A stretch of DNA of 64,000 nucleotides from a virus, in IMG/VR virus record IMGVR_UViG_3300020193_000017, positions 1-64,000 of that record, one strand, 5' to 3'. Numbering within the stretch: position 1 is the stretch's first letter; the number at the start of each line of letters is the position of its first letter. A model generated the notes under the pieces. That model had not been told where the DNA came from. It searched no databases and was given only the letters and a program-made list of their open reading frames with translations. Position numbers and translations under genes: made by a program. Below, one piece after another: positions 32,673 through 63,550 of this stretch.

Positions 32673-33203
32673 CTATTTACCCTTTTTAGATTTAATGTCC
32701 TTTTGAATGTTTGATTTAAGTTTAAATAAACCCTCAAGTATAATAACATTTGTTTGAGGGTTTTCTATTTCATTCAGAATTTGTTTGGTGGACTCATCAA
32801 CTCTTGGTCGCACTGAATCTGTAAATCCCATTTGTGAATATCGTTCAAGTGATTCTCTTTTTAGAACTCTTACACCACCCTTCTTAACTTCTGTCTTAAT
32901 CTTATTTTCCAAATCTACAATCTGATTCATAATCTCTATTTCTCTATCAACTATTGCATTGGTACATTCTCTTTGGTTACTTATTATTTGAGTATTTAAT
33001 TCGTTTACTCTAGTGTTCAGTTCTTCGATTTGGGTATTTTGCAACTTTACTCTTAGAACCAATTCATCACTACTTGATGTAAAAGAATCAACCATTTTTG
33101 GCCCGATTGAAATCAAAATGATTGAAAATAACAACAATAATAATGCAATTATTCTTTGACCTTGAGTGAATTTTGATAATATATCAGATATATATTTGAA
33201 CAT
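32673..33203 (-). CDS. Membrane-anchored coiled-coil protein
   Basis: A 176-residue protein with one membrane helix (RIIALLLLLFSIILISIG) near residue 20 and a long coiled coil (VKLQNTQIEELNTRVNELNT), then a charged tail. Such a design fits a holin-linked, spanin-like or sensor protein. It converges with the gene at 32439, whose stop abuts its own. TATTTATT lies 6 bases before its start. Confidence 0.55.
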   Translation of the reverse strand: MFKYISDILSKFTQGQRIIALLLLLFSIILISIGPKMVDSFTSSSDELVLRVKLQNTQIEELNTRVNELNTQIISNQRECTNAIVDREIEIMNQIVDLENKIKTEVKKGGVRVLKRESLERYSQMGFTDSVRPRVDESTKQILNEIENPQTNVIILEGLFKLKSNIQKDIKSKKGK

Positions 33204-50898: not shown

Positions 50899-52077
50899 CT
50901 AAGATTCTTCCTTAGGTATGATACGATATTTCCCTACTCTTACCCCGAGTTTCTCAAACTTATTTAATACCTGTAAAAAACTCGACGTATCCCTGAGTGG
51001 ATTGTCCTGATTGGGGGGGTGACCGTACTGCAACAGTTCACTCAGTGCGGTTTTTTTCAACACAATACCTATTTCTATGCTGACCCCTAATTTATTTTCA
51101 TTAAAATAACCCTCATGGGTATCTTCAAAATAAACTGTGGGATTTAGTTCATGAAGTATTACATAGTCTTTGTGAGAGTTTGTTATGTTGTAACCGAAAA
51201 TTTTGCCGCCGACTCTCCAGTCGGCCACGATACCATATATTTTGACTGGGACCAAACTATAGGGTACATTAACCCGAGCCGCTGGAGATGAAATGAATCC
51301 AGAACGCGACGCCAGCCGACTTTCCACCACAATGGTCCCCTTTTTTAATGCCTCAAAAACAATCTTTGCGCGTTTCTTTTTTCTTTCAGGTAATACATCC
51401 ACTTTTTCATTATTCTGAATTATGGGGAATAATCTTGTATTTAGAGCCTCTAAATGTTCGTTCTCAATAAAGTTGAAGATTTGTGATAGCTTATCCGACA
51501 AAGATATCTTCGCAATGGACACCTCCTCATATGAGAATAAATTTTTCATATGGGTATCCATGTACATTTGAACATCAAATCTGGCTTCGCCATAGTTGTA
51601 ATACAATTCCATTAGACGAACATAAAATTGTGTGAACACCCCCTCTCTCCCTCCACCTTCATCTCTCCTCCCCCCCTTCTCTCCCAATAAAATCATCTCA
51701 TTGGTGGGTTGATATAAGTGGGAGGGAGTTTTTAAAAGATATTCACGATACTTATCACACCTTTCTTTAAACTCCGAATCTCCTAATACAACATTTATTG
51801 CGGTGTCCGCGAAGGTTTTATAACAATCATATAGCCAACCTAAATTTGGTTTTTTTAGGGTCACCCTTAATATGATGGAAAATCCATTACCAAGGGTTTG
51901 ATGAATTGGGTCAATTTTGTTTTGGAGGACAACTTCGTATGAGAAGTTTTCATTTCCAAAAACTTTTTTGTCAAAATTGGCGGAGAGAATATCAAATACC
52001 TTACCCCCGAAGATATCCCAAAGTGAGACATCGGAAAATTCTTCCTCCTTTATTATGTCATACATCCTTAATGTCAT
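50899..52077 (-). CDS. Hypothetical protein
   Basis: A 392-residue soluble protein, not recognised. It has a charged, Gly/Arg-rich linker near residue 140 (GEKGGRRDEGGGREG), a coiled coil around residues 190-215 and a beta-rich C-terminal half. It is the last gene of the early arm by transcription order. Two boxes lie upstream. The start is 52077 or 52065. Confidence 0.5.
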   Translation of the reverse strand: MTLRMYDIIKEEEFSDVSLWDIFGGKVFDILSANFDKKVFGNENFSYEVVLQNKIDPIHQTLGNGFSIILRVTLKKPNLGWLYDCYKTFADTAINVVLGDSEFKERCDKYREYLLKTPSHLYQPTNEMILLGEKGGRRDEGGGREGVFTQFYVRLMELYYNYGEARFDVQMYMDTHMKNLFSYEEVSIAKISLSDKLSQIFNFIENEHLEALNTRLFPIIQNNEKVDVLPERKKKRAKIVFEALKKGTIVVESRLASRSGFISSPAARVNVPYSLVPVKIYGIVADWRVGGKIFGYNITNSHKDYVILHELNPTVYFEDTHEGYFNENKLGVSIEIGIVLKKTALSELLQYGHPPNQDNPLRDTSSFLQVLNKFEKLGVRVGKYRIIPKEES

Positions 52078-52115
52078 ACATGTGTGGTTTCGTATTACAT
52101 ATAAATATTTTATGT

Positions 52116-52127
52116 GCCAAACTAAAT
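52116..52127 (-). repeat. Early-arm box, copy 1
   Basis: GCCAAACTAAAT on the plus strand, 39 bases before the gene start at 52077. Pairs with copy 2, 56 bases away. Confidence 0.7.
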
Positions 52128-52171
52128 TTATAAATCTCTTCTAGATAATTTTACTTATTTTGAACTATTCC

Positions 52172-52184
52172 GCCAAACTAAATC
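52172..52184 (-). repeat. Early-arm box, copy 2
   Basis: GCCAAACTAAATC on the plus strand, full consensus. Confidence 0.7.
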
Positions 52185-52212
52185 GGATTCAGGTCCCCAT
52201 TGTGGGGGTAAA

Positions 52213-52248
52213 TGAAAAGACCCACAGATGTTAGTCCGCGGGTCTTGG
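52213..52248 (-). terminator. Rho-independent terminator
   Basis: Stem AAGACCC/GGGTCTT, then TTTTCATTT in minus sense. It ends the unit of the gene at 52392. Confidence 0.65.
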
Positions 52249-52288
52249 AAATACCCCACTCCGACAAGGTTTAGTGAGGCAAATACCC

Positions 52289-52366
52289 CACTTCCTCCCG
52301 TAGGGTGCACAGGTGGCGGAGCAACTGCAGGTACCCGTACAGCGCTGCACTTCCTCCCGTAGGGTG
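52289..52366. repeat. Two 19-base GC-rich direct repeats in a structured intergenic island
   Basis: CACTTCCTCCCGTAGGGTG occurs at 52289-52307 and 52348-52366. The roughly 140 bases around it (52250-52391) are much GC-richer than the genome. In minus sense each repeat holds CCTACGGGAGG, and the first continues into AGTGGGGTATTT. No gene is seen. Confidence 0.7.
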
Positions 52367-52391
52367 AGGTAATGAAGTCTAACTCAACTGA

Positions 52392-52589
52392 TTACGCAGT
52401 GAGTAAACTCTTACGAAACGCATAAGCCTTCTTCTTGGATGAGAAGTTTTGGCTGTGGCGGATTCCGTCAACACTTACTCGTACACGGTAACTGCAACCG
52501 TCGAAGTAGATGTTGTTCGACACAGGTACATAGGTCGTAACCGGTGTACGTTTTGTCGACTTGTTTGTTGTGATTTTTTTGCTTGCCAT
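52392..52589 (-). CDS. Small basic AP2/Arm-type DNA-binding-like protein
   Basis: The start is ATG 52589 (MASKKITTNKSTKRTP). 65 residues. A Lys/Thr-rich start is followed by IYFDGCSYRVRVSVDGIRH and NFSSKKKAYAFRKSLL: three strands and a helix as in AP2 or integrase arm-binding domains, where the helix begins after a SSKKxA turn. No catalytic domain is attached. Likely a DNA-binding regulator. Confidence 0.5.
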   Translation of the reverse strand: MASKKITTNKSTKRTPVTTYVPVSNNIYFDGCSYRVRVSVDGIRHSQNFSSKKKAYAFRKSLLTA

Positions 52590-52591
52590 AT

Positions 52592-52624
52592 CGAATATAG
52601 GTTTAATATATAAAATATAACAAT
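52592..52624 (-). promoter_or_regulatory. Bacteroidota-type promoter
   Basis: In minus sense ATTG, 21 bases, TATATTCG (one mismatch), just before the start at 52589. Confidence 0.45.
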
Positions 52625-52671
52625 AAAATCCCACATTTCCAAATCACGCGGAAAATATTTAAAAGAACTTG

Positions 52672-52683
52672 GCCAAACTAAAT
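52672..52683 (-). repeat. Early-arm box, copy 3
   Basis: GCCAAACTAAAT on the plus strand; the next bases TGGC make an inverted repeat with the start of the box. Pairs with copy 4, 53 bases away. Confidence 0.7.
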
Positions 52684-52724
52684 TGGCATCTCCTCCTCGT
52701 CTCTTGGTCCCTGAGGTACCCCTT

Positions 52725-52737
52725 GCCAAACTAAATC
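52725..52737 (-). repeat. Early-arm box, copy 4
   Basis: GCCAAACTAAATC on the plus strand, full consensus, right after the end of the gene at 52747. Confidence 0.7.
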
Positions 52738-52746
52738 ACCAGTAAC

Positions 52747-53034
52747 TCATCTCCGATTTTCCATCTCATCATAGAAAGTTTGCACGTCCGTAGCCTCGTG
52801 GAAGCTATTGAAGAGTTGTTCGAATAGGTTCTGCTCAAGCTCTGTCTCAAATGATGACACCATTCTAAGGTACACCTCCGACTTTGCAGTTTCATATGGA
52901 ATTGGAATCAAGCTCTTCAGACGCATCTGATTCAGATAGTCCTGAAATACGTGTAAATATTTCTCGGGGTCTACCTTGGTGTTATCATGTTTCATAACAC
53001 ATATCTTATTCTTGTTGACTGTTTTCTTTTTCAT
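52747..53034 (-). CDS. Hypothetical protein
   Basis: The start at ATG 53034 (MKKKTVNKNKICVMKHD) lies one base after the stop of the gene before it. 95 residues, helical, acidic end (FYDEMENRR). Not recognised. Confidence 0.5.
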   Translation of the reverse strand: MKKKTVNKNKICVMKHDNTKVDPEKYLHVFQDYLNQMRLKSLIPIPYETAKSEVYLRMVSSFETELEQNLFEQLFNSFHEATDVQTFYDEMENRR

Positions 53035-53035
53035 C

Positions 53036-53194
53036 TTATTTAGGTTTCTCCCTTTCTTCCAATCGTAGTAAATATCTGGCAAACATCTTTGCTGCTATGG
53101 CCAACCTCTGTGGTTTGAAATGATACTTCTTATCAAGTCTAGCCATTGCTATTCTCATAAACTGTTCTTGAATATGTGGTTCTACTAGTATCAC
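53036..53194 (-). CDS. Small basic protein with uncertain start
   Basis: A frame from GTG 53194 (overlapping the previous stop) or ATG 53158. With GTG it has 52 residues including VEPHIQEQFMRIAMARLDKK and KPQRLAIAAKMFARYLLRL. Tight spacing and clean frame support it. Function unknown. Confidence 0.45.
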   Translation of the reverse strand: MILVEPHIQEQFMRIAMARLDKKYHFKPQRLAIAAKMFARYLLRLEEREKPK

Positions 53195-53463
53195 TATTTT
53201 TTTTTACATATTTTTAATTTTACTTCCATTCCCTGTTTGTCCACATACATTAGTACTTCTTTGGGTTTATCTGTGATATCATACCCCCGCAGGGTTAATG
53301 CAAGCGCCCCATTTACAATCTCCACCTCACCGAGTGACACCTCATCAAGGTTGAAGTCATCATATAGGTGTCCCAATAGGATTTTCGAATCGATAGATGG
53401 GTGCTTCTCAAGAGTCTCAAGAATCCACTTATACAACGTTCTTTTGTCTATGGTGGCGGTCAT
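53194..53463 (-). CDS. Hypothetical protein
   Basis: An 89-residue protein with helical start (TATIDKRTLYKWILETLEKH) and beta-rich end. Overlaps the upstream gene by ATGA. Not recognised. Confidence 0.5.
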   Translation of the reverse strand: MTATIDKRTLYKWILETLEKHPSIDSKILLGHLYDDFNLDEVSLGEVEIVNGALALTLRGYDITDKPKEVLMYVDKQGMEVKLKICKKK

Positions 53464-53918
53464 ATGTTATAGTTATAGATGTCGTAATCCCGGATGTTCA
53501 GTTCCTTTCTCCACTCATGTGCAGCATTACTTAGGAAGTTCTTCACCTCATAACCATTGCTTATAGCATATAAAACCAATACAGGTTTGTACTGCTCTGA
53601 AGTTATAACACGTACAATTGATAGACCGAATAGACGCATCCATAATGGTTCATCCACCATGATGGATTTAATCCTGAAGTACCGCACCTCTTGCTGTGAG
53701 ACGTTGAAGACACCACGCTTTTCTTCTATGCTTTTGATTTGTGCTTTATAAGTCCACATGTCAACCTCAAAGTACTTATAAATTGCAATAACCAATGCTA
53801 CACCACCTAGCTGTAGGTTTATGGCACCCGCTATTACAGGTAGTATGAACCATCCAATATTAATCCATTGCGATGGTTTTATGGTAAACACCTCTTCATT
53901 TTCCTCGGCATCTGTCAT
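53460..53918 (-). CDS. Membrane protein with bacterial PH-like domain
   Basis: A 152-residue protein with two membrane helices (INIGWFILPVIAGAINL, GVALVIAIYKYFEV). After them KAQIKSIEEKRGVFNVSQQE followed by VRYFRIKSIMVD and LSIVRVITSEQ fits the bPH_2 domain of YdbS/YdbT-type proteins. Inner membrane. Expressed early, so it could change the host envelope. Confidence 0.6.
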   Translation of the reverse strand: MTDAEENEEVFTIKPSQWINIGWFILPVIAGAINLQLGGVALVIAIYKYFEVDMWTYKAQIKSIEEKRGVFNVSQQEVRYFRIKSIMVDEPLWMRLFGLSIVRVITSEQYKPVLVLYAISNGYEVKNFLSNAAHEWRKELNIRDYDIYNYNI

Positions 53919-53930
53919 AATAAACCAAAT

Positions 53931-54227
53931 TTAAATTCGGGGATGCCTGTTTGTAACGACTTGTCGCAAGCTCCGCTTTTTAGTTGTTTTAACAAGACCC
54001 TCGAATTCAGTTAATTCAATAAGATATACTTTGGTTCTATCACCAAAGACCCCTTCCATCCATTGTTGGTAGATGAGCCCACCGATATCTTTGTTGAGTA
54101 TCCACATATGGGTACTATCTTTTGTCATGATGGCAACATTAGATTTTTGAATCAAAGAAGTATGGGACTGGCATGACACGGCCAATCCCAATACCACTAC
54201 ACCTATTAAAAAGAAAACAGATTTCAT
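53931..54227 (-). CDS. Small lipoprotein
   Basis: The start at 54227 (MKSVFFLIGVVVLGL) gives a lipoprotein signal with lipobox LAVSC (Cys at about residue 19), then a 79-residue periplasmic part. Early phage lipoproteins often block receptors (as in T5 Llp) or DNA entry (as in Cor and similar). The role here is inferred. It follows an unrelated gene with one base between. Confidence 0.65.
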   Translation of the reverse strand: MKSVFFLIGVVVLGLAVSCQSHTSLIQKSNVAIMTKDSTHMWILNKDIGGLIYQQWMEGVFGDRTKVYLIELTEFEGLVKTTKKRSLRQVVTNRHPRI

Positions 54228-54231
54228 CATA

Positions 54232-54840
54232 CTATATATTTGTTTTTAAATTTTTATATTCAGGGTTCTTGTAGAAATCGAAATCAATTACTTCTTCTTC
54301 CTCTACTTGGAAATCAACACACAACCCAACGATTTTCTTACCTTTCTTGGCAACATAAAGTCCGTAACAACCATCACCAATACCTGAAGATGTAACAACA
54401 CCCTCGTCATACACACCCCAATTTTCTTTACCAAGGGTTCTTGAACACATTGAGTGGTACCATCTCTCACCTGTTTCTTTATGGGAACCCATCTCACTCC
54501 AAGGTGACTGTCCAAAGAAAGATATGTCCCCATCCCCATAACCGATTCGTTCCACAATAGAATCATTTCTATAGGAGTCACTTGAGAAGATACCACATTG
54601 ACCTGAATCAACACCGATTTCTGTGGAGTACCCTTCCCATTGTAATACATCGTTAAGATGATTCTCGTGTACTATAAGTAGCATAGAACACCGCACACCC
54701 CAATCATCGAGGTCTACCTTTTTTACGAAACTGTCATACAAACCAGGTTTGACTCCATCCACAACGGACTGGCACCAAGTTGGGATTGTGTAACAGGGGT
54801 CGGATACTACGACCTGCTGTCCAAGTTTGATTTTACTCAT
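54232..54840 (-). CDS. DUF4241-like protein
   Basis: A 202-residue protein. QQVVVSDPCYTIPTWCQ, then GVDSGQCGIFSSDSYR and GDGCYGLYVAKKG resemble a soluble beta-rich family with a D-S-G-Q-x-G motif (DUF4241). It follows a strong early promoter. Function unknown. Confidence 0.5.
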   Translation of the reverse strand: MSKIKLGQQVVVSDPCYTIPTWCQSVVDGVKPGLYDSFVKKVDLDDWGVRCSMLLIVHENHLNDVLQWEGYSTEIGVDSGQCGIFSSDSYRNDSIVERIGYGDGDISFFGQSPWSEMGSHKETGERWYHSMCSRTLGKENWGVYDEGVVTSSGIGDGCYGLYVAKKGKKIVGLCVDFQVEEEEVIDFDFYKNPEYKNLKTNI

Positions 54841-54862
54841 TGTTTTTGTTTTATTGTTACAT

Positions 54863-54895
54863 CAAATGTAATACTTTTTACTAGAATATTCCAAA
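54863..54895 (-). promoter_or_regulatory. Early Bacteroidota-type promoter
   Basis: In minus sense TTTG, 21 bases, TACATTTG. Box copy 5 lies 21 bases upstream of the -33. Confidence 0.8.
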
Positions 54896-54916
54896 TTTTA
54901 TTAGAATATTTTTTTT

Positions 54917-54928
54917 GCCAGACTAAAT
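54917..54928 (-). repeat. Early-arm box, copy 5
   Basis: GCCAGACTAAAT on the plus strand, one mismatch to consensus, upstream of a promoter. Confidence 0.65.
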
Positions 54929-55031
54929 AATCTCCACCTTCTGGTTTCGATTCTTGAAGTAGAAGTAGTATGGACACCAAACCCATACATAGGACCACAG
55001 GGATTTGACAGAACAATGCTGCTTGGGAGCT

Positions 55032-55526
55032 CTAGAAATTTCCTGCTAACCATGGTTTGACCCTAAGTAGGTTATACTCAATCTCGGAATCCATTGCTTG
55101 ACCAAGCTTTTCTTTGGCTTTAACAACAAAATCTTTATTGTTCATTAGGATGTCCACCCCCTTTTCCATTGCTTCAGGGTAGAATTCAATCTTGTCCACG
55201 ATTACACGGACATCTTTTGCTTTCTTATCGCTTCGGTAGAAAGGACTTCTTGCGTAGATGTATTCCCGTACCAGGGAAAGCTTGATATCATCAAGGTCCT
55301 CACGTATGCGCATTTGCATGATAATCTCCTCAAGTGATGCAAGTTGCTCGAATATCGACTTATGCTTGTTAATTAACTTAGAGTAGTCGTCAGTTAATTC
55401 GTTTGCATCTTTGGAATACTTGTTTTTGTTACCACTGTTGATGAATTGTTGATAAGAGCTAATTTCCTTGGAGGTACCAACAATATTGGTAAAAACTCCT
55501 TCAATTGTTTTGTTTACACGTCCCAT
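55032..55526 (-). CDS. Helical protein of unknown function
   Basis: A 164-residue, mostly helical charged protein (LTDDYSKLINKHKSIFEQLA; then LDDIKLSLVREYI). Coiled coil likely. Not recognised. Box copy 6 lies 17 bases before its start. The -7-like AAATTTTG near it is a weak match. Confidence 0.5.
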   Translation of the reverse strand: MGRVNKTIEGVFTNIVGTSKEISSYQQFINSGNKNKYSKDANELTDDYSKLINKHKSIFEQLASLEEIIMQMRIREDLDDIKLSLVREYIYARSPFYRSDKKAKDVRVIVDKIEFYPEAMEKGVDILMNNKDFVVKAKEKLGQAMDSEIEYNLLRVKPWLAGNF

Positions 55527-55543
55527 TTCAAAATTTTAAATTG

Positions 55544-55556
55544 GCTAATCTAAATC
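55544..55556 (-). repeat. Early-arm box, copy 6
   Basis: GCTAATCTAAATC on the plus strand. The two changed bases are matched by GATTAGCC just downstream, so the site stays an inverted repeat (GGCTAATC/GATTAGCC). Confidence 0.6.
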
Positions 55557-55562
55557 GGGGGA

Positions 55563-55814
55563 TTAGCCATTCCCCGTTAAAATCTTCTTGAAAAATCTGC
55601 CAAACAAATTCGAACCAGTCGACTGTTCCTGAGGTAATCTTGATTCATGATATTCATTGGCAAAATCTATTGCTTCATCTATCTTGATTCTCTCTATAAT
55701 AGATGATGCATAATAAAGGCTTGAAACCTTTAGTTCTTTTTTCCATTCATCATGTGGCAATGGTTCCTGAGGGACTGCCACAGATTGGTAGTAGGGCTTA
55801 TTCATTTTCTTCAA
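55563..55814 (-). CDS. Hypothetical small protein
   Basis: An 83-residue helical protein with a basic C-terminus (NLFGRFFKKILTGNG). Not recognised. Its coding sequence for NLFG contains a box-like copy. Confidence 0.5.
   Translation of the reverse strand: MKKMNKPYYQSVAVPQEPLPHDEWKKELKVSSLYYASSIIERIKIDEAIDFANEYHESRLPQEQSTGSNLFGRFFKKILTGNG
55599..55611 (-). repeat. Early-arm box-like sequence inside a gene
   Basis: GCCAAACAAATTC lies in coding sequence, 55 bases from copy 6, the same spacing as the other pairs. It may be chance. Confidence 0.35.
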
Positions 55815-55816
55815 CG

Positions 55817-56455
55817 TTAGGTTTCTTTTGTGTTTTCTTGTAAGTATTCTTCATAAATTCTCCTCACTTCCTTTTTTTCCTCATCATTAAGGAATGGATA
55901 CCTGTCGGCGATATTCTCGGGTTTGACCTCGTTTTCCATATCGTACTCGAAATTGTTTTCTATCTCACTCCAAAATTGTTCCTCATCCAAGTAGTATAAT
56001 CCTTCTGTGTAATTATAATCCTCTTGTAATGTAATACCCTGCGGATTGAATTCCATCTTACCAGCGAAGTCGCAACCAGGTTCAAAATATGTAATGGTGG
56101 CACTCGTATTGTACATCTTACACAAGTTCTCAAGGAAGCTCACAGGTGGTGACCACGCTGTATCACAATTAAATGATATGGTGTCATCTGTAATATCAAA
56201 CATCCCTTCATAGACATCTATGTCCCACTTACATCCATACCAATCGGTATTGGCAGTGTACCAACCACCATCTTCATATTTTTCTTTAGTGACTTGGGGA
56301 TTTCGTCCAATTAAAGTTTGGAACAAACCAGGCACTTCTTTAGTGGCTTCGGAGGGAGCTGATTTTTTAATTAGAGTATCTATGACCCTACTTAAAGTTG
56401 CAATTCTCTTTTTGTCACCTGTTATGATAATCGTATTTGAGCACCAGTTTGACAT
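55817..56455 (-). CDS. Api92-like (DUF1281-type) protein
   Basis: A 212-residue protein. MSNWCSNTIIITGDKKRI at the start, WYGCKWDIDVYEG near the middle and SFNCDTAWSPPVSFLENLC later fit the Api92/DUF1281 pattern (NWCxN, then GxKWD, then TAWSPP). These proteins are common in phages and mobile elements, with no known activity. Two early promoters lie upstream. Confidence 0.75.
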   Translation of the reverse strand: MSNWCSNTIIITGDKKRIATLSRVIDTLIKKSAPSEATKEVPGLFQTLIGRNPQVTKEKYEDGGWYTANTDWYGCKWDIDVYEGMFDITDDTISFNCDTAWSPPVSFLENLCKMYNTSATITYFEPGCDFAGKMEFNPQGITLQEDYNYTEGLYYLDEEQFWSEIENNFEYDMENEVKPENIADRYPFLNDEEKKEVRRIYEEYLQENTKET

Positions 56456-56477
56456 TTCTTCTAAATTTTATGTGATA

Positions 56478-56485
56478 CAAAGGTA
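56478..56485 (-). promoter_or_regulatory. -7 promoter element TACCTTTG
   Basis: A full -7 match 22 bases before the start at 56455; its -33 is TTAG. Confidence 0.5.
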
Positions 56486-56544
56486 TAAAAAAAATACCAG
56501 TATTCCTAATGATATTCCAATTATTTATTTTTACCACGCAGCAC

Positions 56545-56576
56545 AAATATACAACACATATTTACATAGCCCAAAT
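56545..56576 (-). promoter_or_regulatory. Early Bacteroidota-type promoter
   Basis: In minus sense TTTG, exactly 20 bases, TATATTTG. Box copy 7 lies 18 bases upstream of the -33. Confidence 0.8.
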
Positions 56577-56594
56577 TTTTTTGAAACTTTTTGG

Positions 56595-56607
56595 CCAAAC
56601 TAAATCA
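56595..56607 (-). repeat. Early-arm box, copy 7
   Basis: GCCAAACTAAATC on the plus strand, full consensus. Confidence 0.7.
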
Positions 56608-56634
56608 AGTGGCGCAACAACATCTTCTTGGATT

Positions 56635-56994
56635 TTAGATATGGGAATGTAAGCCTCTTCCTCCAGCTGGGTCTATGAACTCATCATCGTCATCTATGGT
56701 GTAGTGTCCATTATCAAGTTCATCTAAAATGTGGGCAATCTCGTAGATATCCAGTTCGGACAAGTTAATTTCAACATCGTCCCCGAAACTTGTTCCGATA
56801 ACAACACCATCAGGTAGTATTTCACGAACGGCATATTGAACCCTTATATCATCATCAAGATATGTATCGTTTTCCATCACATACACGGCAAATGTATTAC
56901 GGAATGTAATCGTCTTTTTTAAGGTTGAACACTTCTCTCTGACTTTGTCAATCATTTCAGATTGAATGTCTTGTAACTTTTCTTTGTGTGTCAT
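56635..56994 (-). CDS. Hypothetical protein
   Basis: A 119-residue protein, alpha/beta with acidic end (DELDNGHYTIDDDDEFID). It follows the next-upstream gene by 5 bases. Not recognised. Confidence 0.5.
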   Translation of the reverse strand: MTHKEKLQDIQSEMIDKVREKCSTLKKTITFRNTFAVYVMENDTYLDDDIRVQYAVREILPDGVVIGTSFGDDVEINLSELDIYEIAHILDELDNGHYTIDDDDEFIDPAGGRGLHSHI

Positions 56995-56999
56995 ATAAT

Positions 57000-57395
57000 T
57001 TAGAATTTGGTAACAAATAGTTTGTAATCAACCGTCCCTATCTCAATAAAGTTTAGTCCATCGGCATCCCTATCATTATCATTGTAAACCCAATGAGGTT
57101 TTACTCTTGGATTATATTTTAATGTGGAACACATCTTATATGTGTCATATGGTTCAAAGTCCGTAGTTTTTATTTGGATACCATCACAGAGTATCCAAGC
57201 ACATACAGTTTTATGTTGGCCGTTTAATATCTTCTCGGCGGTCTTTCTATTATTCTTTAGGGTACAACCCATCATAACGAGTTGTGTATCTGTCGGTTTG
57301 TGATACGCAACAACTCCATTAGGATACTGAACCTTCCATTTAAGGTAGTTAGGTCCTCGACCGAGATTGAAACGGACTTTTATTCTTTTTGACAT
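57000..57395 (-). CDS. Hypothetical basic protein
   Basis: The ATG at 57395 (MSKRIKVRFNLGRG) is chosen over a TTG six codons upstream that lies inside the box. 131 residues. GVVAYHKPTDTQLVMMGC, then KTAEKILNGQHKTVCAWILC fits a family frequent in phage early regions with no known role. Confidence 0.55.
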   Translation of the reverse strand: MSKRIKVRFNLGRGPNYLKWKVQYPNGVVAYHKPTDTQLVMMGCTLKNNRKTAEKILNGQHKTVCAWILCDGIQIKTTDFEPYDTYKMCSTLKYNPRVKPHWVYNDNDRDADGLNFIEIGTVDYKLFVTKF

Positions 57396-57408
57396 AGTAT
57401 AAGTTTTG

Positions 57409-57421
57409 GCCAAACAAAATC
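57409..57421 (-). repeat. Early-arm box, copy 8
   Basis: GCCAAACAAAATC on the plus strand. It directly joins the terminator stem and ends 14 bases before a start codon. Confidence 0.65.
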
Positions 57422-57440
57422 CTCTGGCTTGCGCCAGAGG
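57411..57440 (-). terminator. Rho-independent terminator
   Basis: In minus sense CCTCTGGC, GCAA loop, GCCAGAGG, then ATTTTGTTT, which is also part of the box. Confidence 0.75.
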
Positions 57441-57449
57441 AGAACCAGA

Positions 57450-58040
57450 TTAATCTTCAAATAGGGTAAACTCTATTTCTTGGTAGTCCATAGTTCCAGT
57501 AACCATTCTTGGATTTTCCTTTTCTACGGAGATAACATCACGAGCCCACGAACCAACAATCTCATTCTTATCATCACCTCTAAAATCTCCACCACCTAGA
57601 CCGTTACCCTCACAAGTTAAAAGAGGTAAGGGGTGTATAGCCCAACCATTAACATTCGGCACCTTCGACTTATCCACAAATAGTTTTTTCGTGTGATTTA
57701 CAATGAAGTTGTAATCTTTTGTTCTACTAACCTTTGGTTGTATTTTTTTATCTGAATGATAAAAATGGTTATTGTACTCATTATCACACAAAGAATATAG
57801 ATTAATTTCAGTTTCGGGTTCGTTGGGGGCGTAATCACCAGCCCATACCACACGAGATTTATAGAACTGACCTCGGCGAGAGAGTTGTTTCTCGAAGGTT
57901 TGAACAAAATCGTTTCTTAACCAAGAGTGTTCCATTAGTTTAAGTCCACTATTGTAATCGTGTGAAATCATAAAGGCGTTAATCTGGTGTTGTCCGTTAA
58001 TCGGTTCACCTAAAAAGATTGGTTTATAGTATTGTCCCAT
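57450..58040 (-). CDS. Hypothetical phage protein (MGQYYK family)
   Basis: A 196-residue protein. It begins MGQYYKPIFLGEP, and has FMISHDYNSGLKLMEHSWL and VVWAGDYAPNEPE, a pattern seen in many phages with no assigned role. It is the only gene between a strong promoter and a terminator, so it forms a one-gene cassette. Confidence 0.6.
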   Translation of the reverse strand: MGQYYKPIFLGEPINGQHQINAFMISHDYNSGLKLMEHSWLRNDFVQTFEKQLSRRGQFYKSRVVWAGDYAPNEPETEINLYSLCDNEYNNHFYHSDKKIQPKVSRTKDYNFIVNHTKKLFVDKSKVPNVNGWAIHPLPLLTCEGNGLGGGDFRGDDKNEIVGSWARDVISVEKENPRMVTGTMDYQEIEFTLFED

Positions 58041-58052
58041 TGTTTTTTAGCA

Positions 58053-58084
58053 CAAATATAATACATATAATTGTTGAAAACAAA
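58053..58084 (-). promoter_or_regulatory. Early Bacteroidota-type promoter
   Basis: In minus sense TTTG, exactly 20 bases, TATATTTG, before the start at 58040. Confidence 0.8.
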
Positions 58085-58124
58085 TAAATGTTTATTTATT
58101 TATTCTAATATAGACAAAAAAATA

Positions 58125-58137
58125 GCCAAACTAATTC
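58125..58137 (-). repeat. Early-arm box, copy 9
   Basis: GCCAAACTAATTC on the plus strand, one mismatch. Confidence 0.65.
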
Positions 58138-58252
58138 CTTTATTGTCCCCAGCCTTTTACAAATACCCTTGTTGTATGACGCGAAAAAATATTTTTCAAA
58201 AAGTGCAAATTTTAGAGACTTGATACGTTTCCTTAATTAGGAGGGTTACATT

Positions 58253-58402
58253 ATGACAACTTTTAGAATTACACTCAGGCTTACACTAAAGGAAATTAAA
58301 GAGGCGTATAGAGAACATTTTAATATTCCAAAGTCAGAGAAAGTTACAAAATATAATATTGCCATTTGGTTGGGTACTCTTGTCGAAGCTGACATTATGT
58401 AG
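58253..58402 (+). CDS. Small plus-strand gene with strong Shine-Dalgarno
   Basis: A 49-residue frame (MTTFRITLRLTLKEIKEAY, basic, helical, ending LGTLVEADIM). AGGAGGG lies 6 bases before the ATG, a full Shine-Dalgarno site that is unusual in this genome. It is the only plus-strand gene of the arm. A -7-like TACGTTTC lies about 20 bases upstream. It might be imported or need strong translation. Confidence 0.5.
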   Translation: MTTFRITLRLTLKEIKEAYREHFNIPKSEKVTKYNIAIWLGTLVEADIM

Positions 58403-58424
58403 CGTACAACGCAGATTCTGCGGC

Positions 58425-58455
58425 AAAGAAAAACCCCTATCATTTTTGATAGGGG
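58425..58455 (-). terminator. Rho-independent terminator
   Basis: Perfect stem CCCCTATCA/TGATAGGGG with TTTT loop; minus sense ends TTTTTCTTT. It ends the gene at 58496 and may also stop the plus-strand gene. Confidence 0.8.
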
Positions 58456-58495
58456 CTTACCGAACAACTAATTATAAACCTATATTCTATTATTA

Positions 58496-58867
58496 CTATA
58501 ATACTCCTTCAATGGAATGACCCTTCTTGGTAAGGTTCTTTCCTTTACGCTCATAGTTGTTGTAACCTACAAGGAACATATCCTTTTTGGTGCCAATCAA
58601 CATTGAACCCTCGAGTTTCATCCCACCATAGTTCACTTTAAGTTTCTTCATAAAATCGTTGAACGACCTTTCAAGCTGTACTCCTATTTTATCGGATGGT
58701 GGAACGGGTGCGTTTTCAATGTGGTAACGAGTACCCACACGAGAAAATTTAATGCTCACCATTTCTTTCTTTTTGAAGTAGGGAACACTTTCATTTAGAC
58801 ACTCACGAATTTGCTCAAGAGATTTCTTTAACGAAGTCGCGGTGCTCTTTCTTGGTTTACGAATCAT
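58496..58867 (-). CDS. Hypothetical basic protein
   Basis: A 123-residue basic protein (RKPRKSTATSLKKSLEQIRE, then IENAPVPPSDKIGVQLERSF). It forms a single-gene cassette between promoter and terminator. Not recognised. Confidence 0.5.
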   Translation of the reverse strand: MIRKPRKSTATSLKKSLEQIRECLNESVPYFKKKEMVSIKFSRVGTRYHIENAPVPPSDKIGVQLERSFNDFMKKLKVNYGGMKLEGSMLIGTKKDMFLVGYNNYERKGKNLTKKGHSIEGVL

Positions 58868-58892
58868 ATAATAGTTAATTTGTTAACAAGAG

Positions 58893-58923
58893 CAAAGGTA
58901 ATAGAAATATTTCTAAAAACAAT
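58893..58923 (-). promoter_or_regulatory. Early Bacteroidota-type promoter
   Basis: In minus sense ATTG, 19 bases, TACCTTTG. Confidence 0.65.
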
Positions 58924-58994
58924 AAAATATTTTGTTTTTGTATAAGTTTGTTTAAAAAGAGTTAAACAACTGATAGTATGGGTGTTACAGATTG

Positions 58995-59007
58995 GCCAAA
59001 CAAAATC
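58995..59007 (-). repeat. Early-arm box, copy 10
   Basis: GCCAAACAAAATC on the plus strand; GTTTGG just downstream makes an inverted repeat with its CCAAAC. Confidence 0.65.
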
Positions 59008-59010
59008 TAA

Positions 59011-59035
59011 AGTTTGGTTAATTTCTAACCAAACT
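59011..59035. terminator. Perfect 10-base-pair hairpin
   Basis: AGTTTGGTTA and TAACCAAACT with a 5-base loop. In minus sense it is followed by TTTAGATTTTGTTT, so it may act as a second terminator. Confidence 0.55.
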
Positions 59036-59070
59036 CGGACTCAGGACAAAAAATCTTGTAAATTTTGAGC

Positions 59071-59104
59071 ATAAAAAAGGGGATAACCTTTCGGTCACCC
59101 CCAT
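59071..59104 (-). terminator. Rho-independent terminator with GNRA loop
   Basis: In minus sense GGGGTGACC, GAAA loop, GGTTATCCCC, then TTTTTTATG. Ends the ParB-like gene. Confidence 0.75.
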
Positions 59105-59125
59105 CATTAACCCAAATCACAAAAG

Positions 59126-59905
59126 TTAGAAACGAAGGTTAAGTTTTTCTTCGTTACGCCTTTTATAGTTATAGATGTCCTCAATCATTGTGGCGTATGA
59201 CCTCTTATCACCACACAAATGGATTGAGCTCGGTCTAACTGTAACCTTGTGTAAAAACTCATCAAATTTGAACTCCTTTTTCTTTTCCATAATCGAAAGG
59301 ATTGTACGAACAAAGTTTGATTTGTTGTAACCCTTTTCGAAATAAGGTTTAAGTTGGAGTATGTTATTGGCCCATGTTTCGGCTTTTTTAATATTGGCTA
59401 CATCGAACTTACCATTTTTGAAACTTTCGGTACTTGGGTGTTTACCACCAGAGTTTTGTAGTAACATCATCCGTTCAGTTAAACTGAACATAGGATATTT
59501 GTCACCAAACTCTTTGAGAATTGTAAAGTTCTCGTTACCCATTTCGGAATATCCGTGGATATAATCACCCTTACGAACCATTTTCTTGTAATTGTTGTAC
59601 TTCAAAAAGGCTTCAAAGATACTTTTCTTGTTGATTTTAACGTCTTCGTCAACAACGTAGTACAATCCAACACCAGCTTTAAGGGCGGCTAACCAACGGT
59701 GTTGTCCGTCAATTATCCAATACTTTCCGTCTTTGTCCTTAATGGTAATAACAATGGGTTCGGTAAAACGAAAACCATTTTTCTTCATATCCTCGGACAT
59801 TTTACGGATATGATTTCTAGAGTTCACATCAATCGTTTCACGGTTGACGGAGTGAAGTTTGAACCAATTAAGGTTCGTAGTAAAAAGAATTTTCTTTTCT
59901 TTCAT
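59126..59905 (-). CDS. ParB/DGQHR-type protein
   Basis: A 259-residue protein. NHIRKMSEDMKKNGFRFTEP and then WIIDGQHRWLAALKAG (DGQHR at 66-70) is a clear ParB-like N-terminal domain. The C-terminal part has no known domain. Related small ParB-like phage proteins are often DNA-binding or nucleases. It has two promoters in tandem, which suggests high early expression. Confidence 0.7.
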   Translation of the reverse strand: MKEKKILFTTNLNWFKLHSVNRETIDVNSRNHIRKMSEDMKKNGFRFTEPIVITIKDKDGKYWIIDGQHRWLAALKAGVGLYYVVDEDVKINKKSIFEAFLKYNNYKKMVRKGDYIHGYSEMGNENFTILKEFGDKYPMFSLTERMMLLQNSGGKHPSTESFKNGKFDVANIKKAETWANNILQLKPYFEKGYNKSNFVRTILSIMEKKKEFKFDEFLHKVTVRPSSIHLCGDKRSYATMIEDIYNYKRRNEEKLNLRF

Positions 59906-59943
59906 TGTTTTTGACTTTAAGATTTATAAATTAGTTATCGGTA

Positions 59944-59975
59944 CAAAGATATAACCATTTTAACTAAAATCCAAA
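59944..59975 (-). promoter_or_regulatory. Early Bacteroidota-type promoter
   Basis: In minus sense TTTG, exactly 20 bases, TATCTTTG, the closer promoter of the ParB-like gene. Confidence 0.8.
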
Positions 59976-60046
59976 TTTTTCTTCATATTTTTTTTAAAAA
60001 TCTTTAAAATTGTTGTTTTTCAATGGGTTTATCCTTGATTTCAACA

Positions 60047-60078
60047 CAAATGTAATACATAAGATACAAATATCCAAA
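60047..60078 (-). promoter_or_regulatory. Early Bacteroidota-type promoter
   Basis: In minus sense TTTG, exactly 20 bases, TACATTTG, the farther promoter of the ParB-like gene. Confidence 0.8.
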
Positions 60079-60152
60079 TTATTTCTAGTATTTTTTTTAA
60101 GAATGTGGTAAAATCATTTCTCGAAATTATTTCACCTGTCGTCCCATCTGAA

Positions 60153-60164
60153 AATTAGTTTGGC
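60153..60164 (+). repeat. Inverted copy of the early-arm box
   Basis: AATTAGTTTGGC on the plus strand, opposite in direction to copy 11 about 36 bases away; together they make a dyad. Confidence 0.5.
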
Positions 60165-60188
60165 ATAACGATTATACTTTTATACTTG

Positions 60189-60201
60189 GCTAAACAAAAT
60201 C
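60189..60201 (-). repeat. Early-arm box, copy 11
   Basis: GCTAAACAAAATC on the plus strand, two mismatches to consensus. Confidence 0.6.
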
Positions 60202-60243
60202 TTCGGATTTCTGAGCTGGGATTTCTCCAATCAGGAATTTTAG

Positions 60244-60276
60244 AATAAAAAAAGGGTGAAGAAAACCTTCACCCCT
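60244..60276 (-). terminator. Rho-independent terminator
   Basis: In minus sense GGGGTGAAG, loop, CTTCACCC, then TTTTTTTATT. Ends the operon at 60334. Confidence 0.85.
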
Positions 60277-60333
60277 AACCAAACACAAACTACAACTATG
60301 AAGTGTGTAATCTATATATAAATGATATGAAAA

Positions 60334-60675
60334 CTATTTCAACTTATCAAGTGTCTTTTCAATTAAATCAATTTGGGAGTTAAACCCCGTTTCAATTCCT
60401 TCTTGTGTAGTACAATCCCAACTTCCATCCAAGGCCATCTCGGCATCGGTTTTCAATGTCTTTAATAAATGTATTACTTCTTCCTTTATGTCCAATGTTC
60501 CTTTGACCATTGTTTGTGAGTACTCATTATTATAGTGGGAGTCACTACCTCGGTTCAGTATCTTACTTGTTATTACTTGGTGGGAACCTAATGGTTGCCA
60601 ACCTAAATTAACGTGTTGGTTCACCTTCGAGACGAACTCATTCTTGTCGGTTGATGTGATGATATTATACTCCAT
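60334..60675 (-). CDS. DUF1737-like protein
   Basis: The start at 60675 (MEYNIITSTDKNEFVSKVNQ) overlaps the previous gene by 11 bases and fits the DUF1737 pattern, with GWQPLGSHQV next. The C-terminal part is helical. 113 residues. DUF1737 is a small domain of unknown role, common in phages. Confidence 0.65.
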   Translation of the reverse strand: MEYNIITSTDKNEFVSKVNQHVNLGWQPLGSHQVITSKILNRGSDSHYNNEYSQTMVKGTLDIKEEVIHLLKTLKTDAEMALDGSWDCTTQEGIETGFNSQIDLIEKTLDKLK

Positions 60676-60862
60676 TGGATAATTGATTGTTGGTTTTACA
60701 AATAGGACATACTTTTTCCTCATATTGTGTATGGTCTTGTGGATTGAATTGGTCATCAGTTACCACCACAATTAAATCATCATAGTGTCCAACCCAATGA
60801 CAATTCAAACATTCAAGAACAAATTGATTGTTCCAACTCCTCCGTAGATTATGACTTTCCAT
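60665..60862 (-). CDS. Zinc-ribbon protein
   Basis: A 65-residue protein with CLNCHW and, about 30 residues later, CPICKTN, a C4 zinc ribbon. The N-terminal ESHNLRRSWNNQ is basic. Possible nucleic-acid binding. It overlaps genes on both sides. Confidence 0.6.
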   Translation of the reverse strand: MESHNLRRSWNNQFVLECLNCHWVGHYDDLIVVVTDDQFNPQDHTQYEEKVCPICKTNNQLSNGV

Positions 60863-61106
60863 TTGAATAAACTAGTTTACCATTATCAGTATAAAGTTCT
60901 TGTGTAGAACACCCATCGTTTTCCTCAACACTTAATTGTTCTTGTGTGTCGGTGAGTTCATCCCACGGAATACTATCGGTATCACCATTGTTTACCATAT
61001 CCTTGGCTTTCTGCCAAGCTAATTCGTCGGATTCAGCCTCAACTTCGAAATGGGTTCTCATCCAAGTTGTTATTTTTTGGTCAAGATAGAAATCAAACTT
61101 TTCCAT
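60849..61106 (-). CDS. Hypothetical acidic protein
   Basis: The start is set at ATG 61106 (MEKFDFYLDQKITTWM). 85 residues, with EVEAESDELAWQKAKDMV in the middle, similar to small phage proteins of no known role. Confidence 0.5.
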   Translation of the reverse strand: MEKFDFYLDQKITTWMRTHFEVEAESDELAWQKAKDMVNNGDTDSIPWDELTDTQEQLSVEENDGCSTQELYTDNGKLVYSNGKS

Positions 61107-61108
61107 AG

Positions 61109-61429
61109 TTACCAAGTTTTAGGGTATTTTGCCAACACATTTTGAGGATACAATTCTCCGTTTCCGTTTCCAAGAACATCTTCCCACCAACGAACACCGA
61201 TTGATATACGGGGAACTGAAAATTTCATAATGTCATCATCATGAATGTAAAAGAACACATCGTTTCTTCCACCCGTACCTGATATACCTGGTGTCGGTAA
61301 TGTAGTTACTTCTTCAAGGTACTTCACACGAGAACCCATCTCTTTTTTAAAGAAATCCTCAAACTCCTTAATGTTCTCTTGACCAACAAGGGTGGCTTCC
61401 CATACACATAATTGATTGAACTTACTCAT
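61109..61429 (-). CDS. Hypothetical protein
   Basis: A 106-residue protein with GISGTGGRNDVFFYIHDDDI and WWEDVLGNGNGELYPQ, probably alpha/beta. Not recognised. Part of the 60.3-61.6 kb operon. Confidence 0.5.
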   Translation of the reverse strand: MSKFNQLCVWEATLVGQENIKEFEDFFKKEMGSRVKYLEEVTTLPTPGISGTGGRNDVFFYIHDDDIMKFSVPRISIGVRWWEDVLGNGNGELYPQNVLAKYPKTW

Positions 61430-61439
61430 GACTTTTAAT

Positions 61440-61646
61440 TTAGAGGGTTATGAATTGACAATAATCTACAAGGTCAGTTAAGTGGATACGACCATACTTC
61501 ACGGAGGAATAGTAACCTTGTTTTTTGTAGTTCTCTTTCCAATTCTTAAAAGCTTCCATCATTTTCTTTCTACTTGGATAATAGTTCACACCTCTTTCTA
61601 TTGTGAACCCGTCAGGGGATAGAATTTGATATCGTTTCTTTTTCAT
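61440..61646 (-). CDS. Hypothetical small basic protein
   Basis: A 68-residue basic protein (MKKKRYQILSPDGFTIER, then YPSRKKMMEAFKNWKENYK). Like several phage proteins that add a beta-turn-helix fold. Not recognised. Confidence 0.5.
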   Translation of the reverse strand: MKKKRYQILSPDGFTIERGVNYYPSRKKMMEAFKNWKENYKKQGYYSSVKYGRIHLTDLVDYCQFITL

Positions 61647-61668
61647 TTTATTTTGTTTTCAATGCTTT

Positions 61669-62181
61669 TTATAATTTTTCCAAGTACCATTTGGCGCCTT
61701 CATAATCTTTATCATAAATAATCTTTCCAATCTTCGTGCGAAAGCAACAAATTTCGCCGTAACATTCTTTATAATCGCCTTCCTTAGCCATTTTCCTTAA
61801 TTTAGAAGCGGTAATGTTTTTGTAAAATTTTTCTCCTCTCCCAATTACTTCCGCTCGTAAATCTATCCAACCGTCATCGCTAACATCAAACCCTGGTTTA
61901 CCAAGCCAATCCTTTTCAAATTTATCATTCATATCATCCATTAATTTATCTACAAATGTTACCATTTTTTCTAGGTCTTTCTTATTCAATTTTTCCCTGA
62001 AAAAATCTTCAATTCTTTCATTGTCGTGGTCGCTTTTCCAATCTGCTTCTTCAATAAGACGCCACATTTGGCTTTCAGTTTTCAAATTGTCAACTACACG
62101 ATAGTTACGTTTTTCCAATTCTTTAATAAGTTGTTCATCAGTAAACGTTTTAAAATCTGTTTTTTTAATTTTACTTTTCAT
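61669..62181 (-). CDS. Hypothetical charged helical protein
   Basis: The start at ATG 62181 (MKSKIKKTDFKTF) follows an early promoter by 19 bases. 170 residues, mostly helical and acidic, with the end KIIYDKDYEGAKWYLEKL. Two Cys pairs near residue 145. Not recognised. First gene of the operon. Confidence 0.55.
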   Translation of the reverse strand: MKSKIKKTDFKTFTDEQLIKELEKRNYRVVDNLKTESQMWRLIEEADWKSDHDNERIEDFFREKLNKKDLEKMVTFVDKLMDDMNDKFEKDWLGKPGFDVSDDGWIDLRAEVIGRGEKFYKNITASKLRKMAKEGDYKECYGEICCFRTKIGKIIYDKDYEGAKWYLEKL

Positions 62182-62200
62182 TTTATTTTGTTTTATAATA

Positions 62201-62233
62201 CAAATATACAACTTATAATGTAATACATCCAAA
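62201..62233 (-). promoter_or_regulatory. Early Bacteroidota-type promoter
   Basis: In minus sense TTTG, 21 bases, TATATTTG. Box copy 12 lies 18 bases upstream of the -33. Confidence 0.8.
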
Positions 62234-62251
62234 TTATTTTACAACTAAATA

Positions 62252-62264
62252 GCCAAACTAATTC
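62252..62264 (-). repeat. Early-arm box, copy 12
   Basis: GCCAAACTAATTC on the plus strand, the last copy seen; none is found beyond the TnpB gene. Confidence 0.65.
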
Positions 62265-62335: not shown

Positions 62336-63550
62336 TCAGCCCTGAAATTCTTCATTGAGTTTTTCCATGGGTGGATTGGTTTCGGGAATCATAGACTCAC
62401 CTAATGGTAACGCCTCCTCCTGTTTTTGTTTTGTGTCCGACTGCATCCCACAACCAGACAATATGTTTATTCCTTGTTTCAGAATATTTTTACTTGCGTT
62501 TAAATCTCTATCGTGATGTTCATTACAAGAAGGACAAGTCCATTCTCTAATAGAAAGATTTAAATCTTGGTTTATCCATCCACAATTAGAACAAGTTTTA
62601 GTAGATGCATAAAATTTATCAATTTTAACAAATGATTTATCATTCCATTTTGACTTATATTCTAACATTGTGTAGAACATATCTAAACCAACATCGGCTA
62701 AGGATTGAGCCAATTTATGATTTTTCATCATATTCTTAATTGACAAATCCTCTACAGATATAATGTCGTGGTTTTTGACAATTTCTGTTGATACTTTATG
62801 TAAGTAATCTTTTCTGATATTAGTTATTTTTTCGTGAACTAAAGATAATTTAATTTTTTGTTTTTGTCTGCTATTACTACCTTTTTGTTTTTTAGATAGT
62901 TGTCTTTGTTCATATTTTAGTTTTTTTAATTTGGTTTTAAGTGATTTGATATTTTTATAGGTTTTTCCATCTGAAAGTATTGCTAAATCTTTGATACCAG
63001 TATCAATACCAACACTTGAACTTGTTTTATCAAATGGTTTGTAATTGACTTTACAAGTTATACTAGCATAATATTTTCCTGTTGTTGATTTGGTAATTGT
63101 TGCAAACGATATTTCACCTTCTAATTCTCTATGTAATTTTATTTTAATTCCATCTTTAAATTTAGGAATTACAAGTTTGCCGTCTTTAACTAATACGTGT
63201 TGGGGTATCTTAAAACTTTGTATATCGTATTTTGACTTAAATACTGGAAACTTATTCCGTTTGCTGAAGAAATTTTTGTATGCTATATCTAAGTTTTTTA
63301 ATGAGGCTTGTAATGATTGGGCATTCACTTCTTTTAACCAAACAAACTCCTCATCTTTTTTAAGTTCAGTTAAGGTTCTCTCATTATCGGAATAGTTAAG
63401 TGAAATTTTTTCATTAAGATATTTTTCTTTACGTTCATTCAAGAAGTGATTAAACACAAATCTACAATAACCAAAGTGTTTACTCAACAAGGGTTCTTGT
63501 TCCTTTGTCGGGTAAATTCGATACTTGTATGACTTGTGTATTAACTTCAT
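62336..63550 (-). CDS. tnpB: Intact TnpB (IS200/IS605 OrfB), RNA-guided nuclease family
   Basis: A 404-residue protein with the typical start (HKSYKYRIYPTKEQE). The RuvC residues are Asp183 (VGIDTGIKD), Glu267 (ISVEDLSI) and Asp349 (HHDRDLNASKNIL). The zinc finger is CSNCG at 320 and CPSC at 339. All look intact. TnpB cuts DNA with a guide from the element's right end. No TnpA is seen here, so it may be immobile and kept for another use. A GACCC/GGGTC hairpin follows its stop. It is coupled by ATGA to a small upstream gene. Confidence 0.9.
   Translation of the reverse strand: MKLIHKSYKYRIYPTKEQEPLLSKHFGYCRFVFNHFLNERKEKYLNEKISLNYSDNERTLTELKKDEEFVWLKEVNAQSLQASLKNLDIAYKNFFSKRNKFPVFKSKYDIQSFKIPQHVLVKDGKLVIPKFKDGIKIKLHRELEGEISFATITKSTTGKYYASITCKVNYKPFDKTSSSVGIDTGIKDLAILSDGKTYKNIKSLKTKLKKLKYEQRQLSKKQKGSNSRQKQKIKLSLVHEKITNIRKDYLHKVSTEIVKNHDIISVEDLSIKNMMKNHKLAQSLADVGLDMFYTMLEYKSKWNDKSFVKIDKFYASTKTCSNCGWINQDLNLSIREWTCPSCNEHHDRDLNASKNILKQGINILSGCGMQSDTKQKQEEALPLGESMIPETNPPMEKLNEEFQG

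Follow-up and report, generated by a model that had tools for sequence, protein, structure and literature searches.

The window analysed here, meaning the whole stretch of 64,000 nucleotides, covers bases 1-64,000 of the 64,880-base IMG/VR virus record IMGVR_UViG_3300020193_000017, and towards its end lies an early-type arm of minus-strand transcription units, in which a short asymmetric box of 13 bp is repeated. The word GCCAAACWAAWTY at no more than one mismatch has 16 sites in the window against 1.56 expected, a count reached in none of 100 shuffles; 15 of them lie at 51,834-62,264, 14 of those 15 being on the + strand, and the lone outlier, with one mismatch, is at 32,777. At the same tolerance, the strict 13-mer gives nine sites, all on the + strand and all within 52.1-62.3 kb. 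The first-pass annotation, made from the letters alone, had counted about 12 copies at 52.1-62.3 kb and had seen none elsewhere; the concentration of the box in this region is confirmed by these searches, as are the three pairs that it placed 53-56 bp apart (52116/52172, 52672/52725 and 55544/55599) and the position of one pair member, the copy at 55599, inside a minus-strand open reading frame (ORF).

Using the ParB-like protein of the arm (59126-59905) as query, 34 related loci were recovered, several of them on contigs of 200-311 kb. A position weight matrix derived from 175 sites gives an enrichment of the box in the arm of 82-fold in the window record, 111-fold in G007, 69-fold in G010 and 109-fold in G009, where 66 of 72 sites (26 kb of 288 kb), 47 of 57 (20 kb of 311 kb) and 47 of 48 (22 kb), respectively, fall inside the arm, so that a density comparison across the genome and its relatives finds the box confined to this region. 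One orientation dominates, the two strands holding 49 and 17 sites in G007 and 15 and 1 in the window record. When 2.9 million viral contigs were scanned for the paired box, 14 were recovered, and at least 12 of these are also among the relatives reached through the ParB-like gene or the mini-protein gene described below. The paired box has no match in 84,980 bacterial and archaeal genomes (GTDB), and a host regulon was rejected on this ground; no description of such a box in Bacteroidota phages was found in the literature.

Regarding its origin, the window record is a fragment from an uncultured clade of jumbo myoviruses, because related contigs reach 200-311 kb and among the long proteins of G007 (288 kb) are a contractile tail sheath, a phage-type DNA polymerase, a ribonucleotide reductase and an ATP-dependent protease; most of the relatives are fragments as well. 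The host is probably a member of Bacteroidota, since the arm promoters have the TTTG / TAnnTTTG form described for this group (PMC6847099). Known phages were rejected as relatives, as a megablast search with the arm (the last 14 kb of the window) gave no match in 50,697 phage records, a set from which very near records were possibly excluded, and the ParB-like gene matches Flavobacterium phages at just 29%.

Transcription units of the arm

Genes were called by a simple ORF method, and promoters and terminators are consensus calls. The order within a unit is stop codon, terminator, one or more boxes, Bacteroidota promoter (TTTG-N20-TAnnTTTG) and gene. Over six arms, in which 106 box gaps and 21 boxless gaps were scored, an intrinsic terminator is present in 70 of the 106 box gaps, preceding the first box in 63 of those 70, and a host-type promoter in 81, following the last box in 79 of those 81; in the boxless gaps, a terminator occurs in 3 and a promoter in 8. 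The link between box and gene gaps also holds in a relative, as the arm of G007 has a box in 27 of its 31 gaps of at least 40 nt against 1 of 15 shorter gaps, and its gene-strand host-type promoters number 20 in the arm against 9 in the other 262 kb. Thus, the earlier description of the box as lying between a terminator and a promoter stands over the six arms (63/106 and 79/106) and is partly evident in the window itself, where two terminators and four promoters were called in the seven box-bearing gaps. The features of the window are as follows.

51834-51846, minus strand: weak, uncertain box inside gene 50899-52077
52116-52128, minus strand: box, AATTTAGTTTGGC on the gene strand, in tandem with 52172 and just upstream of gene 50899-52077
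52172-52184, minus strand: box GATTTAGTTTGGC, in tandem with 52116 at 56 bp
52392-52589, minus strand: gene of a 65-amino-acid (aa) AP2/integrase-arm-like protein (the mini-protein), a candidate regulator, with paired boxes flanking both sides
52612-52643, minus strand: promoter of the mini-protein gene, with the -33 TTTG at 52640-52643 and the -7 element TATATTTT at 52612-52619
52672-52684, minus strand: box AATTTAGTTTGGC, promoter-proximal member of a tandem pair
52725-52737, minus strand: box GATTTAGTTTGGC, distal member of that pair, at 53 bp
54863-54895, minus strand: host-type promoter, TTTGG...TACATTTG
54917-54929, minus strand: box TATTTAGTCTGGC, 21 bp upstream of the -33 element
55544-55556, minus strand: diverged box GATTTAGATTAGC, directly before a start codon, with no promoter between
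55599-55611, minus strand: box GAATTTGTTTGGC, inside ORF 55563-55806, in tandem with 55544 at 55 bp
56544-56575, minus strand: host-type promoter, TTTGG...TATATTTG
56594-56606, minus strand: box GATTTAGTTTGGC, 18 bp upstream of the -33 element, centred at about -61
57409-57421, minus strand: box GATTTTGTTTGGC, adjoining a GC-rich hairpin (CCTCTGGCGCAAGCCAGAGG); a start codon follows after 15 nt, with no promoter between
58053-58084, minus strand: host-type promoter, TTTG...TATATTTG
58125-58137, minus strand: box GAATTAGTTTGGC, 40 bp upstream of the -33 element, centred at about -83
58995-59007, minus strand: box GATTTTGTTTGGC, after a terminator and upstream of gene 58496-58867
60047-60078, minus strand: host-type promoter, TTTGG...TACATTTG, of the ParB-like gene 59126-59905
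60152-60164, plus strand: inverted box, GCCAAACTAATTT on the gene strand, 37 bp from 60189
60189-60201, minus strand: box GATTTTGTTTAGC, outer member of the inverted pair
60597-60609, minus strand: weak, uncertain box inside gene 60334-60756
61013-61025, minus strand: weak, uncertain box inside gene 60849-61115
62201-62233, minus strand: host-type promoter, TTTGG...TATATTTG
62252-62264, minus strand: box GAATTAGTTTGGC, 18 bp upstream of the -33 element, centred at about -61

The box at 52672 ends 28 bp upstream of the mini-protein promoter, and the same spacing class is found in G007 and G010. The boxes at 55544 and 57409, which leave no room for a promoter before the start codon, may be relics or may act on an unrecognised promoter. 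Beyond the last box, 72 bp away and at the arm's outer end, a minus-strand gene (62336-63550) encodes a TnpB/OrfB-type IS605 protein with a Cas12f-like TNB domain, and a protein of G010 near its arm also matches TnpB/OrfB IS605-type families.

Helical phasing and lineage drift of the box

The decisive finding for the box is its helical phasing relative to the promoter. Measured from the box end, the -33 TTTG lies 7-9, 17-21, 29 or 40 bp away (n=49 units, Rayleigh r=0.906 at 10.5 bp), with clusters at 8-9, 18-19, 29 and 40 bp. Since related phages share promoters, similar promoters were merged by a simple identity cut, and the phasing persists in the 15 distinct promoters obtained (r=0.87, p=1.2e-5), as well as in an independent collapse to 19 units (p=5e-6) and in the 8 units left after removal of the 16-21 class (p=0.002). 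Meanwhile, the control distances in the same units are unphased, both from the -33 element to the ATG (r=0.13) and from the terminator to the box (r=0.12). With the T of TAnnTTTG set at -12 (PMC6847099), the box centres fall at about -51, -61, -72 and -83. Phasing is also seen with other boxes and orientations, where the distances are 35, 36, 45, 53-57 and 66 in G017, 26 (four times) and 37 in G004, and 64, 65, 65, 75 and 76 in G024, those of G017 and G024 being one turn apart on few sites in each. Such phasing is expected of a protein bound on one face of the helix; neither a terminator nor an RNA element nor a recombination seam predicts it. The spacing between copies is quantised as well, the inverted pairs at 37-38, 49-50 and 60 bp (p ~7e-9), in addition to 17-bp and 28-bp forms, and the tandem pairs less sharply.

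An alignment search with the mini-protein led to 44 loci, most of which carry around the gene a similar high-copy word whose sequence is lineage-specific, the cores being, on the gene strand or its complement, TTGTTTGGC, TTCTTTGGC, TTCTGTGGC, TTGTTTCGC, TTACTGGGR, TTGACCGGA and ATGACTGGC. G004 is without the box of the window; upstream of its mini-protein gene it carries TGCCAAAGAATATTC seven times in tandem at intervals of 46-48 bp, and further copies of this word keep a constant 26 bp to the -33 element. Across the box classes (A to H), the arms keep homologous genes in roughly collinear order, so that whole arms have changed their box between lineages. In the same G004 (C1, approximately 58468-64916, at the end of L096 and the start of L097), the strand switch to the box arm is immediately preceded by an unbroken run of about 35 ORFs on one strand, each of 50-75 aa and overlapping minimally, which may be a tandem array of paralogues.

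In addition, GTATTACA/GTATGACA is a second word that hardly occurs outside the arm in any lineage, with 30 of its 32 copies in G007 at 200-240 kb, and it often lies between inverted boxes or abuts them (window 51-62 kb, G007 210-236 kb and homologous arms). This word, GTATKACA, was considered as a part of the box and rejected, being a separate, second arm-confined word. A likeness to integron attC was also rejected, since by eye the core does not fit RYYYAAC/GTTRRRY.

The regulatory reading and its alternatives

The arm word very probably serves as the docking site for a gene switch specific to these viruses, the word being altered separately in each lineage, and from these sequence patterns we infer that a phage-encoded protein binds to the box with an activating effect. 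As a whole, the first-pass annotation is partly supported: its proposal of an operator or activator site gains strong support from the promoter phasing, with its unphased controls, and from the lineage-specific drift, while the seam survives as a correlate and the stem-loop does not. In the reading that we hold to be probable, the asymmetric 13-bp box would be the site of a phage-specific regulator, helix-phased upstream of host-RNA-polymerase promoters and activating in class I style. The regulator would sit upstream of the TTTG / TAnnTTTG promoters of the arm, on one helix face and centred at about -51/-61/-72/-83, and would contact the host RNA polymerase once bound, the most likely effect being activation in class I geometry, which is favoured because of the upstream-only, turn-spaced placement with the main site at -61. 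Second copies, tandem or inverted and one to several turns away, would probably allow cooperative binding. One regulator would then control the whole early-type arm, and its specificity would drift between lineages, with all its sites following.

Phage-coded regulators that bind upstream of host-polymerase promoters are known, such as Ogr of P2 and Delta of P4. Phage phi29 has four sites for its regulator p4 (CTTTTT-15 bp-AAAATG; PMC3100819), and the box is similar in its putative reading by a phage-coded regulator upstream of host-polymerase promoters; however, this handful of sites differs from the 16-66 found here. The class I site of CRP is at -61.5 (PMC4693257), and the box shares with such activator sites of E. 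coli the upstream position, the whole-helical-turn distances and a main site centred at about -61, whereas CRP sites are palindromes bound by a host factor, and the box is asymmetric, confined to a phage arm and lineage-specific in sequence.

Several points weigh against activation by a phage regulator. The arm promoters are near consensus, so that an activator is possibly unneeded; about a quarter of the box gaps have no recognisable promoter after the box (55544 and 57409 in the window); the inverted boxes are weakly phased to the promoter (p=0.04 for all sites and p=0.12 after collapse); and, in the screens described below, no protein family convincingly tracks box type.

It is also conceivable, though rather unlikely, that the regulator, once bound, represses the early arm or switches it off, in a stoperator-like or phi29-p4-like manner, with the drift serving to exclude competing related phages. 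Promoters near consensus require no activator, and together with the stoperator-like diversification they speak for repression. In phi29, p4 together with p6 turns early promoters off and the late one on (PMC3100819). The stoperators of cluster A mycobacteriophages are many asymmetric 13-bp sites, mainly in one orientation and in short intergenic places, with a drifting motif (PMC6550527, PMC9283540), as with the monomeric repressors L5 gp71 and that of TipsytheTRex, and the box matches them in its 16-66 asymmetric copies of one dominant orientation, in its motif drift between lineages and in having sites that flank the gene of a putative DNA-binding protein. However, stoperators are genome-wide and stop both initiation and elongation, whereas the sites of this arm are confined to it (66 of 72 in 26 kb for G007) and are helically phased upstream of many separate host-type promoters, preceding them in 79 of 81 cases and not lying over or after them. 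Moreover, no lysogeny genes or module were seen, and the mini-protein is absent from bacterial genomes. Among the scanned arm proteins, no match to a stoperator-type repressor (N-terminal helix-turn-helix plus Stoperator domain) was found. Activation by the regulator would seem about twice as likely as repression.

Compatible with both activation and repression, the modelled mini-protein is a doubtful candidate for reading the box and controlling its own gene. Of the box-bearing records, just one, a 15-kb fragment, lacks it; its gene is directly preceded by boxes in all class A relatives and by the seven tandem copies in G004; and it has the sole DNA-binding-like fold recognised in the arm. 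This predicted fold is beta-beta-beta-beta-alpha, with a predicted local distance difference test (pLDDT) score of 82, and the structures that it matches best over the full length are AP2 and integrase arm-binding domains, at weak E-values (best 0.6). No match to the mini-protein was found in bacterial genomes (GTDB), nor any isolate carrying it in the phage collection. Although position and fold are fitting, the box identity does not follow the protein, as the mini-proteins of L131 (box ATTACTGGGG) and L133 (box TGCGAAACAA) are almost identical and its family distance tracks box distance poorly (partial r=-0.27), and it was therefore kept as a rival only. As a speculation, the second word, GTATKACA, which all lineages share, could be what the conserved mini-protein reads instead.

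A partial-Mantel-type screen of family distance against box distance in 48 families, as well as the genes specific to class E, gave no family that convincingly tracks box type, the class E candidates looking unrelated to DNA binding. At the top of the screen (r=-0.68), family 16 (29199-30383, plus strand in the window) occupies a fixed locus in 12 relatives, with identity down to about 22% against about 55-60% for its neighbours; its protein has conserved N- and C-terminal motifs and no known domain, and it was set aside for lacking a DNA-binding domain and looking like a fast structural protein. Also outside the arm, a plus-strand gene at 7202-8737, adjoining tail-fibre-like genes, encodes a tryptophan halogenase-like protein (phrog_2928, E=3e-107).

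To our knowledge, the promoter-stem-loop (PeSL) cassettes of T4 consist of a promoter and a stem-loop only, and a dedicated high-copy box between terminator and promoter is not known from them. T4-type PeSL cassettes (Arbiol 2010, Comeau 2014, via PMC4503421) place a terminator and an early promoter between small, shuffled genes of non-essential appearance. The arm resembles them in having a terminator followed by a host-type promoter between genes (70/106 and 81/106 box gaps) and in the shuffling of gene order at such junctions, as adjacency among seven class A relatives, in pairs that are not independent, is conserved at 59% of box gaps against 84% of long boxless gaps and 88% of short gaps, and families 25, 71, 17, 9 and 12 change place between relatives. 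The comparison of cassette order thus finds the breaks concentrated at box gaps, and the arm has been rearranged by transcription units, as in the PeSL regions of T4; this shuffling is real but probably secondary. Unlike T4 PeSL, most units have the extra high-copy phased box between terminator and promoter, evolving in concert within each lineage. The likeness drawn by the first-pass annotation holds for the terminator-promoter composite, and its stem-loop part fails the covariation test given below.

From the same adjacency data and relocated families, the box could be read as a recombination seam, a short shared sequence moving promoter-gene cassettes as in T4, which we regard as very unlikely. 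A seam predicts neither the phasing to the promoter at 10.5 bp nor that between boxes nor one dominant orientation, and does not predict the replacement of all copies by a new sequence. Furthermore, box gaps are also transcription-unit borders, which confounds the correlation; the box marks these borders, and the adjacency data do not make it the recombining sequence.

Least probable is a hairpin-forming element of RNA or single-stranded DNA (terminator part, processing site or cassette end), which is suggested by the inverted pairs and by GC-rich hairpins next to many boxes but largely refuted, since the arms of 54 distinct inverted pairs do not covary (563 of 702 complementary against 561.4 +- 7.0 when shuffled, p=0.44), terminators are separate elements, before the box in 63 of the 70 gaps having one, and the box is mostly upstream of the start site, outside the transcript that it precedes. 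An inverted-repeat partner preserved while bases change, as had been noted for some copies, therefore finds no support as covariation, and the two arms behave as independent copies of one site.

Returning to the box as an activator site, it is a plausible, still tentative extension that the early-type arm forms one regulon, its helix-phased sites being recognised by a small phage regulator and the specificities of sites and regulator turning over together. If true, these phages would hold a natural series of orthogonal activators for the Bacteroidota RNA polymerase, and a single-regulator, multi-promoter, turn-spaced arm would be a clean natural experiment on the activation of this unusual, little-known polymerase. 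Replacement of the box throughout whole arms, which has happened repeatedly (classes A to H), is a case in which 10-60 sites evolve in a coordinated way, and sequence alone suffices to follow it. If the regulator is found, it would provide an orthogonal set of gene switches for Bacteroidota.

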